Shown here in pieces: positions 6,224 to 25,341 of a DNA stretch of 26,405 nt. The DNA is taken from the IMG/VR virus record IMGVR_UViG_3300017768_000070, positions 1-26,405 of that record; one strand, written 5' to 3'. Both the position numbers and the translations under genes were made by a program. This DNA comes from a virus. Position 1 is the stretch's first letter, and each line of letters begins with the position of its first letter. The notes under the pieces were generated by a model that worked only from the letters and a program-made list of their open reading frames with translations, had not been told where the DNA came from and made no database searches.

Positions 6224-6586
6224 ATGACTATGATTACTAAAACTGCCGAAACACTACAAGACGGTATTACAAATATGATGGCTGCTGCCAAAGAAGACTA
6301 CTTTAGTTGGTCATCTACTGGTAAAGAAAGTATCTCTTCTTATTCTCAACAACAACTTGAAGAGTGGGATTCTAAAATTAAAGTTAAAGAAGGACAAAAG
6401 TACATTAAGATTGTACGAGATAATTCTGTCTTTGCTTTTATCTGTAAAACAGATTTTAAACATTTTAAAAAAGGTGATGTATTGAAACCTGCTGGTTACA
6501 ATGCACCTGCTTTAAATCAACCTAGAGGTAATGTTCTTTCTGGAAACTTTCCAATTAGATGGACAGGACCTTTATATTTAAAATAA
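6224..6586 (+). CDS. Hypothetical protein, 120 aa
   Basis: This is a soluble-looking 120-aa protein with a helical N-terminal third rich in Gln/Ser/Glu. The C-terminal half (KVKEGQKYIKIVRDNSVFAF, FKKGDVLKPAGYNAPALNQ) looks like a small beta barrel. AAGGA stands 7 nt before the ATG, at the end of the preceding gene, whose stop is 1 nt away, so the two are probably co-translated. I recognise no catalytic motif and no family. It lies second in the sigma70-driven plus-strand run. Confidence 0.7.
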   Translation: MTMITKTAETLQDGITNMMAAAKEDYFSWSSTGKESISSYSQQQLEEWDSKIKVKEGQKYIKIVRDNSVFAFICKTDFKHFKKGDVLKPAGYNAPALNQPRGNVLSGNFPIRWTGPLYLK

Positions 6587-6604
6587 CCAATAGGAGACTA
6601 TATT

Positions 6605-6883
6605 ATGACAGCATTGAAATTTAACGATATGAATAAGGTACTTGAATGGATACGAGAACCTTCTCATAAAGAACATCTATACATCTTGGAGGCTGCGATT
6701 GCAAAAGCAAATCAGGTATCTTTAGACCAATTTAGTATAGGTACAAAAGTTGTGTTTGGTCGTCCACGAGGTGCAAAGCACTTTGGTGTGATTGTTAAAT
6801 GCAATCCGAAGAAAGCAGTTGTTATGGAAGAAGGTCGTGGTAAATGGACCGTGCCTTATTCTCTAATGAAACTTGCTTCTTAA
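6605..6883 (+). CDS. Conserved phage hypothetical protein with SH3-like C-terminus, 92 aa
   Basis: The first 40 residues form a predicted helix (NKVLEWIREPSHKEHLYILE). The second half (FSIGTKVVFGRPRGAKHFGV, IVKCNPKKAVVMEEGRGKW, VPYSLMK) has the alternating pattern of a small SH3/KOW-type barrel. From memory, T4-like marine phages carry relatives with the GRPxGxKxxGVIVKCNPKKAVV pattern. The basic barrel suggests RNA or nucleic-acid binding, which is inference. A TAGGAGA ribosome site lies upstream. It is third in the plus-strand run. Confidence 0.75.
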   Translation: MTALKFNDMNKVLEWIREPSHKEHLYILEAAIAKANQVSLDQFSIGTKVVFGRPRGAKHFGVIVKCNPKKAVVMEEGRGKWTVPYSLMKLAS

Positions 6884-6909
6884 TATTAACCTTAATTGAA
6901 AGAGATAGG

Positions 6910-6999
6910 ATGTTTACTTTTCTTATCGTGTACACAGCAGTTGCCTTATTTGGCTGTGCTGTGTCAGAAGACTTGACCTGTATACCAGGTATTTTCTAA
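6910..6999 (+). CDS. Possible 29-aa membrane microprotein
   Basis: ATG at 6910 to TAA at 6997-6999 encodes a hydrophobic peptide (MFTFLIVYTAVALFGCAVSE) with a short Cys-containing tail. An AGAGATAGG ribosome site lies immediately upstream. The stop directly abuts the last base of the convergent Nfu-type gene (7000), so the ORF fills the space exactly. Its length allows only one membrane helix. Moderate to low confidence, because such short ORFs can arise by chance. Confidence 0.45.
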   Translation: MFTFLIVYTAVALFGCAVSEDLTCIPGIF

Positions 7000-7296
7000 T
7001 TATGCAAATGGTGTGTAACCTTGTTCGGCAGCTGTAGTATCATCTTCTGATATTATAGTTTTAACTTCTGGACAATAATGTTTCATCATACTTTCAACTC
7101 CTTGTTTTAAAGTAAGTTGAGACATTGCACACCCAGCACAACTTCCTGCCATTAATAACTTTAATGTGCCATCTTCATCAAACGAAATAAACTCAATCTT
7201 ACCATTGTGAGCTGCAACACTAGGTGCTACTTTATCATCTAAATGAAATTTAATTTTTCTAATTGTTTCTTCGTGTGTTTCAGTTGTAGTTGTCAT
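7000..7296 (-). CDS. Nfu/NifU C-terminal-type Fe-S cluster protein
   Basis: The 98-aa protein is a stand-alone NifU C-terminal (Nfu) domain. It has the C-x-x-C motif in GSCAGCAMSQLTLKQGVE (Cys53 and Cys56) followed by the usual helix and a CPEV motif. Nfu proteins bind a 4Fe-4S cluster at a dimer interface and pass it to target proteins. The length is that of a single domain, without the A-type N-terminal half of bacterial NfuA. It overlaps the upstream 62-aa membrane-protein gene by 4 nt (ATGA), in one transcription unit with a 2OG-Fe(II) oxygenase. An auxiliary metabolic role is inferred. Confidence 0.9.
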   Translation of the reverse strand: MTTTTETHEETIRKIKFHLDDKVAPSVAAHNGKIEFISFDEDGTLKLLMAGSCAGCAMSQLTLKQGVESMMKHYCPEVKTIISEDDTTAAEQGYTPFA

Positions 7297-9135: not shown

Positions 9136-9186
9136 GGTGCGTTCCTTCAGGCGATTGCCTTACTTCCGACCATTGTTGGTTGAACG
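9136..9186 (-). ncRNA. Glutamine riboswitch (glnA / Downstream-peptide type)
   Basis: The minus strand carries the conserved core of the glutamine-binding aptamer: CGTTCA, then CGGAAGTAAGG, then GAAGGAACGCACC. It folds as the expected three-stem junction. P1 is CGTTC (9186-9182) with GAACG (9144-9140). P2 is ACC-AACAAT-GGT (9180-9169). P3 is AGGC-AATC-GCCT (9160-9149). The 3' CACC lies 10-15 nt before the AAGGAGGGTG ribosome site and could pair with its GGTG, suggesting translational control. The aptamer begins only about 9 nt after the late promoter, so it forms the very 5' end of the transcript. Known in cyanobacteria and cyanophages; recognised here by motif and fold, not by search. Confidence 0.9.
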
Positions 9187-9194
9187 AATACTAA

Positions 9195-9252: not shown

Positions 9253-9400
9253 TATAACTCCGATACAAAGAGTCGCCCTCTCCCTGGTAAGATTAGTCTA
9301 TGAGTGTTCTCTAAATGTTCTCTATGTTTTTAAATGTGTCGCCACGCTGACTCTATAGCATTCTCTGGAGTTTTCACACACTTATGTATAAGATTGTCAA

Positions 9401-9410
9401 ACGCTAGCGT
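9401..9410. promoter_or_regulatory. 10-bp palindrome upstream of a sigma70-type promoter
   Basis: ACGCTAGCGT is a perfect palindrome ending 13 nt before the -35 of the 9424 promoter. The position fits an operator or activator site; no regulator is known. Confidence 0.3.
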
Positions 9411-9423
9411 AAAAAGAAAGTGC

Positions 9424-9452
9424 TTGACAAGTATCCGACAATGTAGTACAAT
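9424..9452 (+). promoter_or_regulatory. Sigma70-type promoter for the 63-aa gene
   Basis: TTGACA (9424-9429), a 17-nt spacer and TACAAT (9447-9452), with the same GCTTGACA extension as at 5979, 23404 and 24564. The start near 9459 leaves a 30-nt leader with GAAAGGAAA. Confidence 0.85.
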
Positions 9453-9488
9453 AGACTTATAATAACCAATGAAAGGAAATACAACACT

Positions 9489-9680
9489 ATGGCGTATTAT
9501 AATAATGATGATGTAATGCAGAAGTTAGATGAAATCGCTAACGACATAATGAACCTATCTATAAGAGTGAATAAGATAGACGACTCTATCCCGAAAAAAA
9601 ACTCCGAAAAAAATTCACAAAGTCAAAGCCTAGATAAATCACTAGGATCCACAGAAGACCCTTTGCTAGTTGAAATGTAA
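9489..9680 (+). CDS. Hypothetical protein, 63 aa
   Basis: This is a small hydrophilic protein. Its N-terminal 35 residues form a predicted helix/coiled coil (VMQKLDEIANDIMNLSIRV), and its C-terminal half is disordered and rich in Ser/Lys/Gln. GAAAGGAAA lies about 10 nt before the ATG, behind a clear sigma70-type promoter with a palindrome upstream. It is a lone plus-strand gene among late minus-strand genes, so it is probably an early product. It might bind a host protein; no family recognised. Confidence 0.7.
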   Translation: MAYYNNDDVMQKLDEIANDIMNLSIRVNKIDDSIPKKNSEKNSQSQSLDKSLGSTEDPLLVEM

Positions 9681-23404: not shown

Positions 23405-23718
23405 GCACCTGTATAGGAATTTATCATACCCATAGCAAATATCACAGCCGCAACTGCATTTAACATAATTAATGCTCTATCGTGCCATAGCATACCTACT
23501 ATGAACCAACCTACAACACCTAAAAAGTGAAATACGAGGTTCAAAGGGTGTATATTAGTTGCCGTTAGAACCATTCCAGTGAGAATAATAACACTAGAAA
23601 TCCATTTAATGTACCACGATAAATCACCTTTTGGTGTTATCTTTTTAAATACTCTGGTACTATTTAATTCTTTAATCTTATCATCAAGTTTCTTCTTGTA
23701 TACTTCTGTCATACTCAA
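23401..23718 (-). CDS. Three-helix membrane protein, 105 aa
   Basis: The protein has a charged N-terminal 35 residues and three membrane helices (about 37-54, 58-77, 82-99): WISSVIILTGMVLTATNI, LVFHFLGVVGWFIVGMLWHD and LIMLNAVAAVIFAMGMI. Similar proteins are common in marine T4-like phages near gp32, from memory. No function known. It overlaps gp59 by 4 nt (ATGA). Its last codons and stop (GGT GCT TGA) form part of the gp32-unit promoter. Confidence 0.75.
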   Translation of the reverse strand: MSMTEVYKKKLDDKIKELNSTRVFKKITPKGDLSWYIKWISSVIILTGMVLTATNIHPLNLVFHFLGVVGWFIVGMLWHDRALIMLNAVAAVIFAMGMINSYTGA

Positions 23719-24320
23719 TTAAATATCTCTTTCATAATCAGTTTTGTTTCTGTTCTATTGTACCGTAAGAACGGTGCAAATTTCTTTAGTCGTTTAGCAT
23801 AGATAGGCCAAACTACTTTTTCCTCAATTTCTTTATTCCATTTTCTAGTGAATCCCAATAACTCTTCAAAGACCACAAAAGTTTCATAACATATTTGTTT
23901 AGATAGTAGAAGTTTGAAAAAGATTGGATGTTGACCTCCATTAACCACAAAAAGGTCATCAAAAGACAAGCGCTTATTATCCATATTATTCCTAATACTA
24001 TTACACTCATTCCTAAACTGATAAGTAAAACTATCTTTACGCTTCTTGTAATCAAAGTATATATCGTGGCCATCAGACTTAGCAAGATTGCCAATCCAGG
24101 CTTTATCTTGGTGTAGAAAGTTTGACACAAAGAAGTCAACTGCTTCTTCTGCGTTATATTTTTTAGAAAGTTTGTGAAAGAAGTATTTGTCATTTCGTTT
24201 TGTAAATGTTTCTAATTTGCAATTGACTTTACCTCCATATGTGATATAGTCATATGTTTCGGTAGTAAAGTGAAGTTTAATACCCAACCAAATTTTAAAT
24301 ACATCAAATCCTCCATACAT
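23715..24320 (-). CDS. 59: Helicase loader gp59
   Basis: The 201-aa protein matches T4 gp59 (217 aa), which loads gp41 helicase onto gp32-coated forks. Key segments are MYGGFDVFKIWLGIKLHFTT, KRNDKYFFHKLSKKYNAEEA, DFFVSNFLHQDKAWIGNLAK and HPIFFKLLLSKQICYETFVV. Near-identical segment order is seen in T4. It lies between gp33 and the 105-aa membrane protein, overlapping gp33 by one base, in the T4 order around gp32. The family call is firm. Confidence 0.9.
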   Translation of the reverse strand: MYGGFDVFKIWLGIKLHFTTETYDYITYGGKVNCKLETFTKRNDKYFFHKLSKKYNAEEAVDFFVSNFLHQDKAWIGNLAKSDGHDIYFDYKKRKDSFTYQFRNECNSIRNNMDNKRLSFDDLFVVNGGQHPIFFKLLLSKQICYETFVVFEELLGFTRKWNKEIEEKVVWPIYAKRLKKFAPFLRYNRTETKLIMKEIFN

Positions 24321-24529
24321 TATACAGGTAGTTCGCTTGTTTTAGGTAACAGATTTAACTTCTGACACTCTAAAGCAACCTTCTCTTTTAATGCTTTGTT
24401 AATTAATGGACCGACCGTAGCTGTGTCAATCTCTCTTTCTTCGCAATAAAGAACGATAGCATCCATATAAGATGTTTTCTTCTCTTTTTTGAAGGCTTCT
24501 ATTTCTAAACTAAATTGTTTACTATTCAT
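24320..24529 (-). CDS. 33: Late transcription coactivator gp33
   Basis: The 69-aa protein has the marine T4-like gp33 pattern: MNSKQFSLEIEAFKKEKKTS, YMDAIVLYCEEREIDTATVG, then INKALKEKVALECQKLNLLP. gp33 bridges RNA polymerase and the sliding clamp at late promoters, which fits the TATAAATA boxes in the window. It is adjacent to gp59 as in T4. The ATG lies 6 nt after the -10 of a sigma70-type promoter and has no ribosome site, so the mRNA from that promoter would be leaderless. Sequence identity to T4 gp33 is low; context supports the call. Confidence 0.8.
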   Translation of the reverse strand: MNSKQFSLEIEAFKKEKKTSYMDAIVLYCEEREIDTATVGPLINKALKEKVALECQKLNLLPKTSELPV

Positions 24530-24833: not shown

Positions 24834-24899
24834 TTATCTCTCCTTTGAAAACGAGAAGTTTCTGTTGCCAAGTACCTCTCAAACTCCGTTACCTATTAA

Positions 24900-24953
24900 C
24901 TAGGCAGCAAGGGCAAAATTTGCTTCGCCATTTAAAATTGCGTTTGAGTTCGC
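24900..24953 (-). other. tmRNA tag reading frame
   Basis: From the resume codon GCG the frame encodes ANSNAILNGEANFALAA and stops at TAG. With the charging alanine the tag would be Ala plus these 17 residues. The ALAA end is the classic ClpXP/ClpAP signal. AATAGTTG just before resembles the AATAGTC upstream of the E. coli resume codon. CCTA-GTTA-A-TAGG-TAAC at the stop could form a small pseudoknot. Confidence 0.85.
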
Positions 24954-25007
24954 CAACTATTAATCTCCAATGGGTCATCTGCGTCTGTCAATCCTAACAC
25001 ACCCCCC

Positions 25008-25086
25008 ATAAAAACACTAGCGATACTTACGCCACAGATATAACCAATACTTTAACATAGCAGTTCTCCTTCTACTAGTGTGTTTA
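25008..25086 (-). other. tmRNA intervening segment with stem and 13-codon ORF
   Basis: The ends of the segment pair: ATAAACACACTAG (25087-25075) with CTAGTGTTTTTAT (25020-25008), 12 of 13 positions. This stacks on the acceptor stem, as expected before processing into two pieces. Inside, AAGGAG is followed 7 nt later by ATG (25058) and the 13-codon frame MLKYWLYLWRKYR, ending at TAG (25019-25017) in the stem. Confidence 0.7.
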
Positions 25087-25146
25087 TGGTGGAGGTGTCG
25101 GGAGTTGCACCCGAGTCCAGTCCGGTTCTTACACCACCATCAACAA

Positions 25147-25341
25147 TTAATCCTTTTTAATCTTATCGCAAGTATTCTCGTCAGCATAAAGACCAGTCTC
25201 TTTGTCGTATAACCAAACATATGAGTATGCAATGCTATTGCCTTTCTCTATACATTTCTTACCGAAAGAAACTCTTGGTTCCTTTATACTACAAGCACTT
25301 ATTAAACTTGCAATAAAAATAATACTAATCAGTTTGTACAT
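25147..25341 (-). CDS. Putative small lipoprotein, 64 aa
   Basis: The N-terminus MYKLISIIFIASLISAC is a lipoprotein signal with lipobox ISAC; Cys17 is the lipidation site. The mature part is about 47 residues with two more Cys (GKKCIEKGNSIAYSYVW, ENTCDKIKKD). AAGGAAG precedes the ATG, and the gene overlaps the 109-aa secreted protein by 17 nt. It lies just before the tmRNA acceptor piece. It might act in superinfection exclusion or as a lysis lipoprotein; not shown. Confidence 0.7.
   Translation of the reverse strand: MYKLISIIFIASLISACSIKEPRVSFGKKCIEKGNSIAYSYVWLYDKETGLYADENTCDKIKKD

Follow-up and report, generated by a model that had tools for sequence, protein, structure and literature searches.

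A permuted two-piece tmRNA in an uncultured marine phage and small genes in the tmRNA spacers of related viruses

The window analyzed here, a viral stretch of 26,405 nucleotides (IMG/VR record IMGVR_UViG_3300017768_000070), carries on its minus strand (25151-24851) a permuted two-piece tmRNA that matches the alphaproteobacterial type in Rfam, and in a substantial set of related viral tmRNAs the spacer between the two pieces, the intervening sequence (IVS), appears to hold a small protein gene or a tRNA. We favor, at a probability of about 80%, a joint reading in which the window encodes a complete alpha-type tmRNA of a T4-like marine phage that is processed and tags proteins, the spacer of its relatives is a loop that tolerates cassettes, and the short open reading frame (ORF) in the window's own spacer is the stump of a gene. 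Among the components of this reading, comparison of sequences establishes the model match, the conserved stem and tag, the presence in relatives of spacer ORFs that are longer than chance and constrained, and the exchange of spacers. Because two-piece tmRNAs of phages are already described in PMC9004378, the gene as such is known in kind; what appears to be new is the presence of small protein genes in the spacers of its relatives. Although tmRNAs of phages have been described before, the stretch separating their halves is treated as waste; the comparison exposes small phage genes that have been overlooked and corrects the reading of this phage's tag.

Table 1. Features of the window's tmRNA locus and its neighbors.
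Feature	Position	Strand	Evidence
Acceptor piece (T-arm, 3' half of acceptor stem, ACCA)	25087..25151, 5' end approximate	-	RF04321 alignment
IVS, 80 nt, predicted to be excised; complementary ends ACACTAG/CTAGTGT	25007..25086	-	
Shine-Dalgarno-like AAGGAG within IVS	25066..25071	-	sequence
13-codon ORF MLKYWLYLWRKYR within IVS	25017..25058	-	F1-like start (L159); not significant alone, p = 0.40
Coding piece (5' half of acceptor stem, tag template, conserved 3' hairpin)	24851..25006, 3' end approximate	-	RF01849 alignment to 24851
Most likely tag template GEANFALAA, with GGC following UA-AAU as resume codon and a TAG stop at 24902-24900	24903..24929	-	50 unique relatives compared
gp33-like late-transcription coactivator, synteny marker	24320..24529	-	phrog_254, E 1.2e-19
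gp59-like helicase loader, synteny marker	23715..24320	-	phrog_269, E 2e-63

An earlier note on this DNA, made from the letters alone, had proposed a permuted two-piece phage tmRNA and named Rfam and ARAGORN as checks. Two Rfam models bear the proposal out on the minus strand, RF04321 at 25151-24900 (73.8 bits against a gathering score of 47, E 1.1e-12) and RF01849 (alpha_tmRNA) at 25194-24851 (70.2 bits against 50, E 1.7e-17), and ARAGORN called no gene anywhere in the window. The elements that the note had listed are all in the sequence: a 7-bp acceptor stem GGGGGTG/CACCTCC with G3-U70, an encoded CCA within the ACCA end, a T-arm, a tag ending in ALAA, and the permuted order, with the acceptor piece before the coding piece. 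The T-loop, TGCAACT, has GC at places 2 and 3 as in the consensus of the alpha model. Our analysis arrives at the same piece ends, 25087 and 25006, and the neighbors named in the note, gp33 and gp59, are confirmed by PHROG matches (Table 1), with one small ORF (24833-24561) between the tmRNA and gp33. Group I introns gave no Rfam match, either in the window, searched up to E 1, or in 23 tmRNA loci scored at the gathering threshold, 21 of them with a long IVS.

Conservation among relatives, which the note had set as a test, is extensive. G3-U70 is present in 51/51 unique tmRNAs found through the coding piece alone and in 188/188 overall, a set in which only G3 was free because most search patterns fixed U70, and the tmRNA_permuted model scores above its cut-off in 15/15 and 8/8 tmRNA loci tested. 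We conclude that the window feature is, by its sequence, a phage-borne permuted two-piece tmRNA with a degradation-type tag that is kept in related phages.

The tag is probably shorter than had been claimed. Our scoring pattern fixed AAA(T/C) and G(G/C)(C/A) and left the reading frame beyond them free; from AAA(T/C)|G onward, all of the 50 unique coding pieces scored read through 9 or 10 codons ending in AA, two unique sequences with the upstream motif but no pattern match (L223/L230 and L237) having been left out. Upstream of AAA(T/C)|G no frame is kept, because the distance to the start region proposed in the note varies, being 21, 22 or 23 nt (18, 31 and 1 of the 50 unique pieces by remainder modulo 3); even the close relative L140 has one base fewer than the window between that region and the kept frame. 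Differences among the 20 unique 9-codon templates, summed over pairs, number 388/107/618 at codon positions 1/2/3. By a published rule, the base four positions ahead of the resume codon is an A (PMC2481249); the rule fits UA-AAU-GGC, with GGC at 24929, and fails for GCG at 24953, which has a G there. The 17-residue tag of the earlier note is thus not supported, given the unkept upstream frame among the 50 unique relatives and the break of the A rule, and since conservation of the frame begins at AAA(T/C)|G and the rule fits GGC, the tag is most likely the nine residues GEANFALAA. Two relatives, L233 and L236, have odd tag ends, GNSFELPMAA and GNSYELPMAA, instead of the FALAA type; the 9-residue form in Mosig would be GEDNFALAA.

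The conserved template also argues against one alternative role of the RNA. In E. coli, the endogenous tmRNA is reportedly inhibited by a tag-less tmRNA of mycobacteriophage DS6A (PMC11915505, PMC4131195), making it conceivable that the window tmRNA is a passenger or, as has been suggested for the DS6A molecule, a decoy that attaches to SmpB or ribosomes and thereby keeps the host tmRNA from acting, instead of tagging. We consider this unlikely, as the window has a full tag template and the frame and final AA are conserved in 50/50 unique pieces scored, none of which a decoy would need. In the tagging model that we prefer, the transcript would be cut after CCA by a 3' nuclease and before G1 by RNase P, the 80-nt spacer would be discarded, and the acceptor and coding pieces would pair. 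The host alanyl-tRNA synthetase would charge the RNA with alanine via G3-U70 and, with host SmpB, the tmRNA would rescue stalled ribosomes and append GEANFALAA. We read the spacer of such phages as a loop with paired ends able to accommodate inserts, into and out of which small genes (for membrane or short soluble proteins, or a tRNA) have passed as cassettes; their ORFs would be translated from the precursor or from the freed spacer. Processing, charging, tagging, translation of spacer ORFs and the origin of the window ORF as a stump are what we infer from this arrangement.

The earlier note deemed the locus unusual for a T4-like marine phage, a view that the relatives do not uphold. With the window region as query, one annotated phage record matched, that of Pelagibacter phage Mosig, in which a gene annotated SsrA lies immediately before a late-transcription accessory gene; other queries matched four records of Methylophilales phage Melnitz, and in the one examined a single small ORF of opposite orientation separates SsrA from the late-transcription coactivator that follows it. 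Both phages carry a two-piece tmRNA at the same place. Of the 133 unique phage tmRNA structures described in PMC9004378, 53 are two-piece, and 50 of these are marine or aquatic; among 47 contigs that cluster with Melnitz, 17 have a permuted tmRNA. The Melnitz and Mosig ssrA genes resemble that of the window in their permuted alpha type, in belonging to marine phages (Kyanoviridae in the records) and in lying upstream of a late-transcription gene; they differ in that the window phage is uncultured and has a different IVS, and the word "intervening" is used 0 times in PMC9004378.

Similarly, the suggestion that the permuted order narrows the host holds for the type of the RNA, which is alphaproteobacterial, and does not extend to the host itself, because the alpha-type tmRNA of Melnitz sits, according to PMC9004378, in a host placed outside the Alphaproteobacteria. 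The phage T-arm pattern occurs in 59 stretches of the viral contigs and the coding-piece pattern in 83; in the genome collection the T-arm pattern occurs at 31 places, none titled Alphaproteobacteria and 4 titled only "bacterium". Match counts for the generic acceptor pattern and one further search pattern are to be read as "at least". With a looser script, permuted-tmRNA-like loci were also seen in seven further alphaproteobacterial phage records, of Rhodobacter, Roseobacter, Erythrobacter, Mesorhizobium and Ruegeria (L376, L377, L378, L379, L380, L381 and L382); their IVSs measure 88 to 111 nt and the records have no tmRNA annotation.

For the comparison of spacers, a parsing script demanded complete pairing of the acceptor stem, a T-stem with paired strands and the conserved beginning of the coding piece. 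It recognized 248 places across 374 loci, and 188 of these places are unique; the window and Mosig account for one place each and viral contigs for the other 246. The 248 include the re-fetched contigs L248-L251, L254 and L255, as well as 21 loci from a Shine-Dalgarno-anchored scan, which favors ORFs. In the comparison that identified the window-type spacers, L221, L225, L228 and L244 were left out because one half was unrecognized, and second sites in L138 and L152 were set aside as chance. Spacer length ranges from 5 to 267 nt. The spacer ends pair with each other: among 143 unique IVSs the mean is 7.21 of 8 positions, against 6.60 when ends were re-paired between IVSs with the offset rechosen (maximum of 200 rounds, 6.73), and among 44 distinct end pairs it is 6.95 against 5.09 (maximum of 500, 5.55), a control that favors the observed value because the offset was not chosen anew.

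Most long spacers are largely taken up by an ORF. Among 17 clusters of IVSs of at least 130 nt an ORF covers more than 60% of the length in 15, with p <= 0.05 in 12 and p <= 0.01 in 7; the 10 clusters of 100-129 nt include 3 and 1 at these levels, and in the 69 clusters below 100 nt ORF content is no more than chance (2 and 0). These p values are uncorrected for multiple tests and refer to ORFs closing within 15 nt of the IVS end. A Shine-Dalgarno-like GGAG, AGGA or GAGG often precedes the ORFs, F5 and L063 being exceptions, and the ORFs of families F1, F2, F3 and F6 stop 10 or 12 nt short of the IVS end, where the paired arm lies.

Altogether, 37 of the 188 unique permuted tmRNAs hold a member of one of eleven small-protein families (F1-F11) in the IVS, one (L219) holds a tRNA-Arg(TCT), and six further unique IVSs of at least 100 nt have neither. 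The set collected through the coding piece, and hence independent of the IVS, contains 12 F1 cases, 8 spacers of the window type and 1 tRNA among 81 parsed of 83. F1 is marked by the motif SKHRLHT..YEDLC, F2 proteins have 77-78 residues, F3 (L303) is DUF2061-like with a Pfam match just under the cut-off, and F9 (L262) is Pfam DUF6356 (43.3 bits against a cut-off of 24.4). A 19-residue stretch with mean hydropathy above 1.6 is present in 5 of the 11 representatives (F2, F3, F5, F7 and F8). The spacer ORFs of relatives are longer than chance and constrained at the codon level, most strongly in F2 and weakly in F1, F5 and F7: pN/pS ranges from 0.15 to 0.5 in the eight comparable families, with pooled values of 0.15 for F2, 0.22 for F3, 0.23 for F4, 0.20 for F6 and 0.25 for F8, and weaker values of 0.41 for F5 and 0.43 for F7, those of F3, F7 and F8 resting on one pair each. 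F1 gives 0.49 over nine members and 0.40 without L136 and L282 (differences at codon positions 89/72/189). F9, F10 and F11 have one IVS member each.

Members of two families also occur outside spacers. F1 is free-standing in L221, L225, L242, L016, L252, L253 and L256 and lies beside the tmRNA in L300 and L285, and F10 is free-standing in L331 and L335; inspected by eye, the contexts of free-standing F1 include a place before a capsid-like gene and one between holin- and lysozyme-like genes. A codon-level F1 pattern matched 14 viral stretches, comprising 12 parsed IVS cases plus L148 and L228. The matches in these two, and those in L266, L329 and L348, adjoin tmRNA halves and seem to be additional IVS cases that escaped the parser. 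The IVS proteins tried had no PHROG match with E <= 0.001, and tblastn in annotated phage records gave no F1 match below E 6 and no F2 match. No report of protein genes in a tmRNA spacer was found by title or abstract in the open-licence PMC literature.

Because all loci with F1-F11 are metagenomic or unnamed viral contigs and none is from an isolate, we considered whether they might be artefacts of assembly or binning, or host sequence. A search of PHROGs with the largest protein of six cargo loci left L283 without a match and L342 with a weak tail match, in keeping with such an origin, but L318, L305 and L219 have clear phage DNA-metabolism genes (matches in this group include DnaB helicase, phrog_19, E 7e-117, and exonuclease, phrog_298) and the largest protein of L282 falls in a functionally uncharacterized phage family (phrog_11903, E 8e-75). 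Moreover, contigs from separate samples can share an IVS, as L138 and L152 do, and the isolate Melnitz has a 142-nt IVS with an open frame as a candidate gene. An artefactual or host origin is therefore very improbable.

Melnitz is the nearest to an isolate counterpart of these loci. In its 142-nt IVS, where the record annotates only SsrA, TTGGAG stands ahead of a 54-codon frame that opens at ATG and continues for 42 nt within the coding piece. Begun at a TTG, the frame reaches its longest form of 177 nt, with p = 0.002 by shuffling if it may enter the coding piece that far; when closure within 15 nt of the IVS end is required, the longest ORF measures only 60 nt. The ORF matches none of the spacer-gene families, and a likeness to F6 noticed by eye was not supported on comparison. 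The Melnitz frame is therefore a candidate spacer gene, not a proven one. The Mosig IVS, of 44 nt, is without such a gene.

Spacers and tmRNA bodies have separate histories, as shown by full-length pairs, from which alone we quote these figures since 13 of the 188 unique sequences end at a contig end. L310 and L352 agree at 120 of 121 positions in the IVS, but their acceptor pieces agree at only 32 of 48 and their coding pieces at 87 of 181; conversely, L151 and L255 have identical bodies (198/198) around IVSs of 24 and 146 nt, and L219 and L226 have like bodies (48/48 and 145/151), L219 with the tRNA and L226 without it. From these comparisons we conclude that IVSs move independently of the body.

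If phages keep genes in the spacer, one transcript would give both a ribosome-rescue RNA and a small protein, and the permutation, usually deemed an oddity, would be useful as an insertion site that spares the RNA. It is tempting to speculate that the spacer is a slot for mobile genes, whose cassettes are bounded by paired ends, co-transcribed with the tmRNA and freed by its processing, with their output coupled to tmRNA maturation; we regard this as a tentative proposal that is rather doubtful as it stands. The stop codons of F7, F8 and three of the four F4 members lie 13 nt inside the mature coding piece, and the Melnitz frame also ends within it, so that cleavage by RNase P would leave a non-stop message; were the slot proposal true, these genes would yield protein only from precursor that is still uncut, or else their products would themselves be tagged. 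ArfA is reported to be coupled to trans-translation (PMC10107115) and, by analogy, a similar coupling of spacer-gene output to tmRNA maturation is possible.

The window's own spacer is of the short class. Its ORF of 13 codons is no longer than expected by chance (p = 0.40), yet MLKYWLYLWRKYR can be aligned to the N-terminus of the L159 F1 protein (MLKYFLYLWKK...), and a pattern search found no F1 motif elsewhere in the window. The same 80-nt IVS is present in nine loci, the window (L001) and eight viral contigs; seven of the nine are identical wherever compared and may represent one population, while in L140 and L154 the IVS is identical to the window type at 80/80 positions between flanks that are about 93% identical. 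Instead of decay, such identity despite about 7% divergence of the flanks could reflect recent exchange or an RNA under constraint. The identity could also be taken, along with the paired IVS ends and the chance-level ORF content of IVSs below 100 nt, to mean that spacer inserts are RNA elements tuning the processing or timing of the tmRNA, with their ORFs incidental. As a general account we think this improbable, if worth keeping in mind, because the F2 differences fall at codon positions 1/2/3 as 59/19/151 with a pN/pS of 0.15, the L262 IVS ORF matches a Pfam family well above its cut-off, and F1 and F10 also occur as free-standing ORFs. For the window itself, we suggest that the 13-codon ORF is most likely the stump of a truncated F1 gene, with a role of the RNA or a short peptide as less favored alternatives.

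Related arrangements are known in other systems. The bacterial alpha permuted tmRNA (RF01849, RF04321) shares with the window its piece order, acceptor stem, T-arm and the 3' hairpin of the coding piece, and its IVS is given as 75 to 125 bp (PMC2704228), whereas in the phage relatives the IVS can carry genes. A nominally archaeal permuted tmRNA with a tRNA-Ala in its IVS resembles L219 with its tRNA-Arg(TCT); that case is called unique in PMC11915505, and the spacer genes seen here, which lie in viral contigs, are for the most part protein ORFs and belong to several families. In Coxiella, the intervening sequence of the 23S rRNA contains an S23p ORF (PMC4990558), likewise an ORF in the intervening sequence of a structured-RNA precursor; that example concerns an rRNA and a bacterial selfish element and is compared by arrangement alone. 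A tmRNA group I intron with a homing endonuclease gene (PMC11915505) also has an ORF in the part that is removed, but the loci scanned here gave no match to such an intron and the two pieces are not spliced together.

Finally, the tmRNA of Melnitz is reported to be controlled by a glutamine riboswitch (PMC9004378). The window has a glutamine riboswitch aptamer (RF01739, 55.7 bits) at 9136-9188 on the minus strand, just upstream of a 64-codon ORF (9112-8918). Because this aptamer is about 16 kb from the tmRNA, and the glutamine riboswitch of Mosig about 19 kb from its own, such control is not general. In L270 (1019-1072), L305 (1303-1351) and L352 (511-559), all on the minus strand, the riboswitch is directly downstream of the tmRNA, which makes the gene that follows a likelier target than the tmRNA. 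We also note that in Mosig (L002) a thyX-type gene (6492-7112) lies two genes after the tmRNA, and the tmRNA of Pelagibacter ubique is reported to adjoin thyX as well (PMC2704228). Mosig further has a manA RNA (RF01745, 64 bits) at 9374-9581, downstream of its gp59-like gene.
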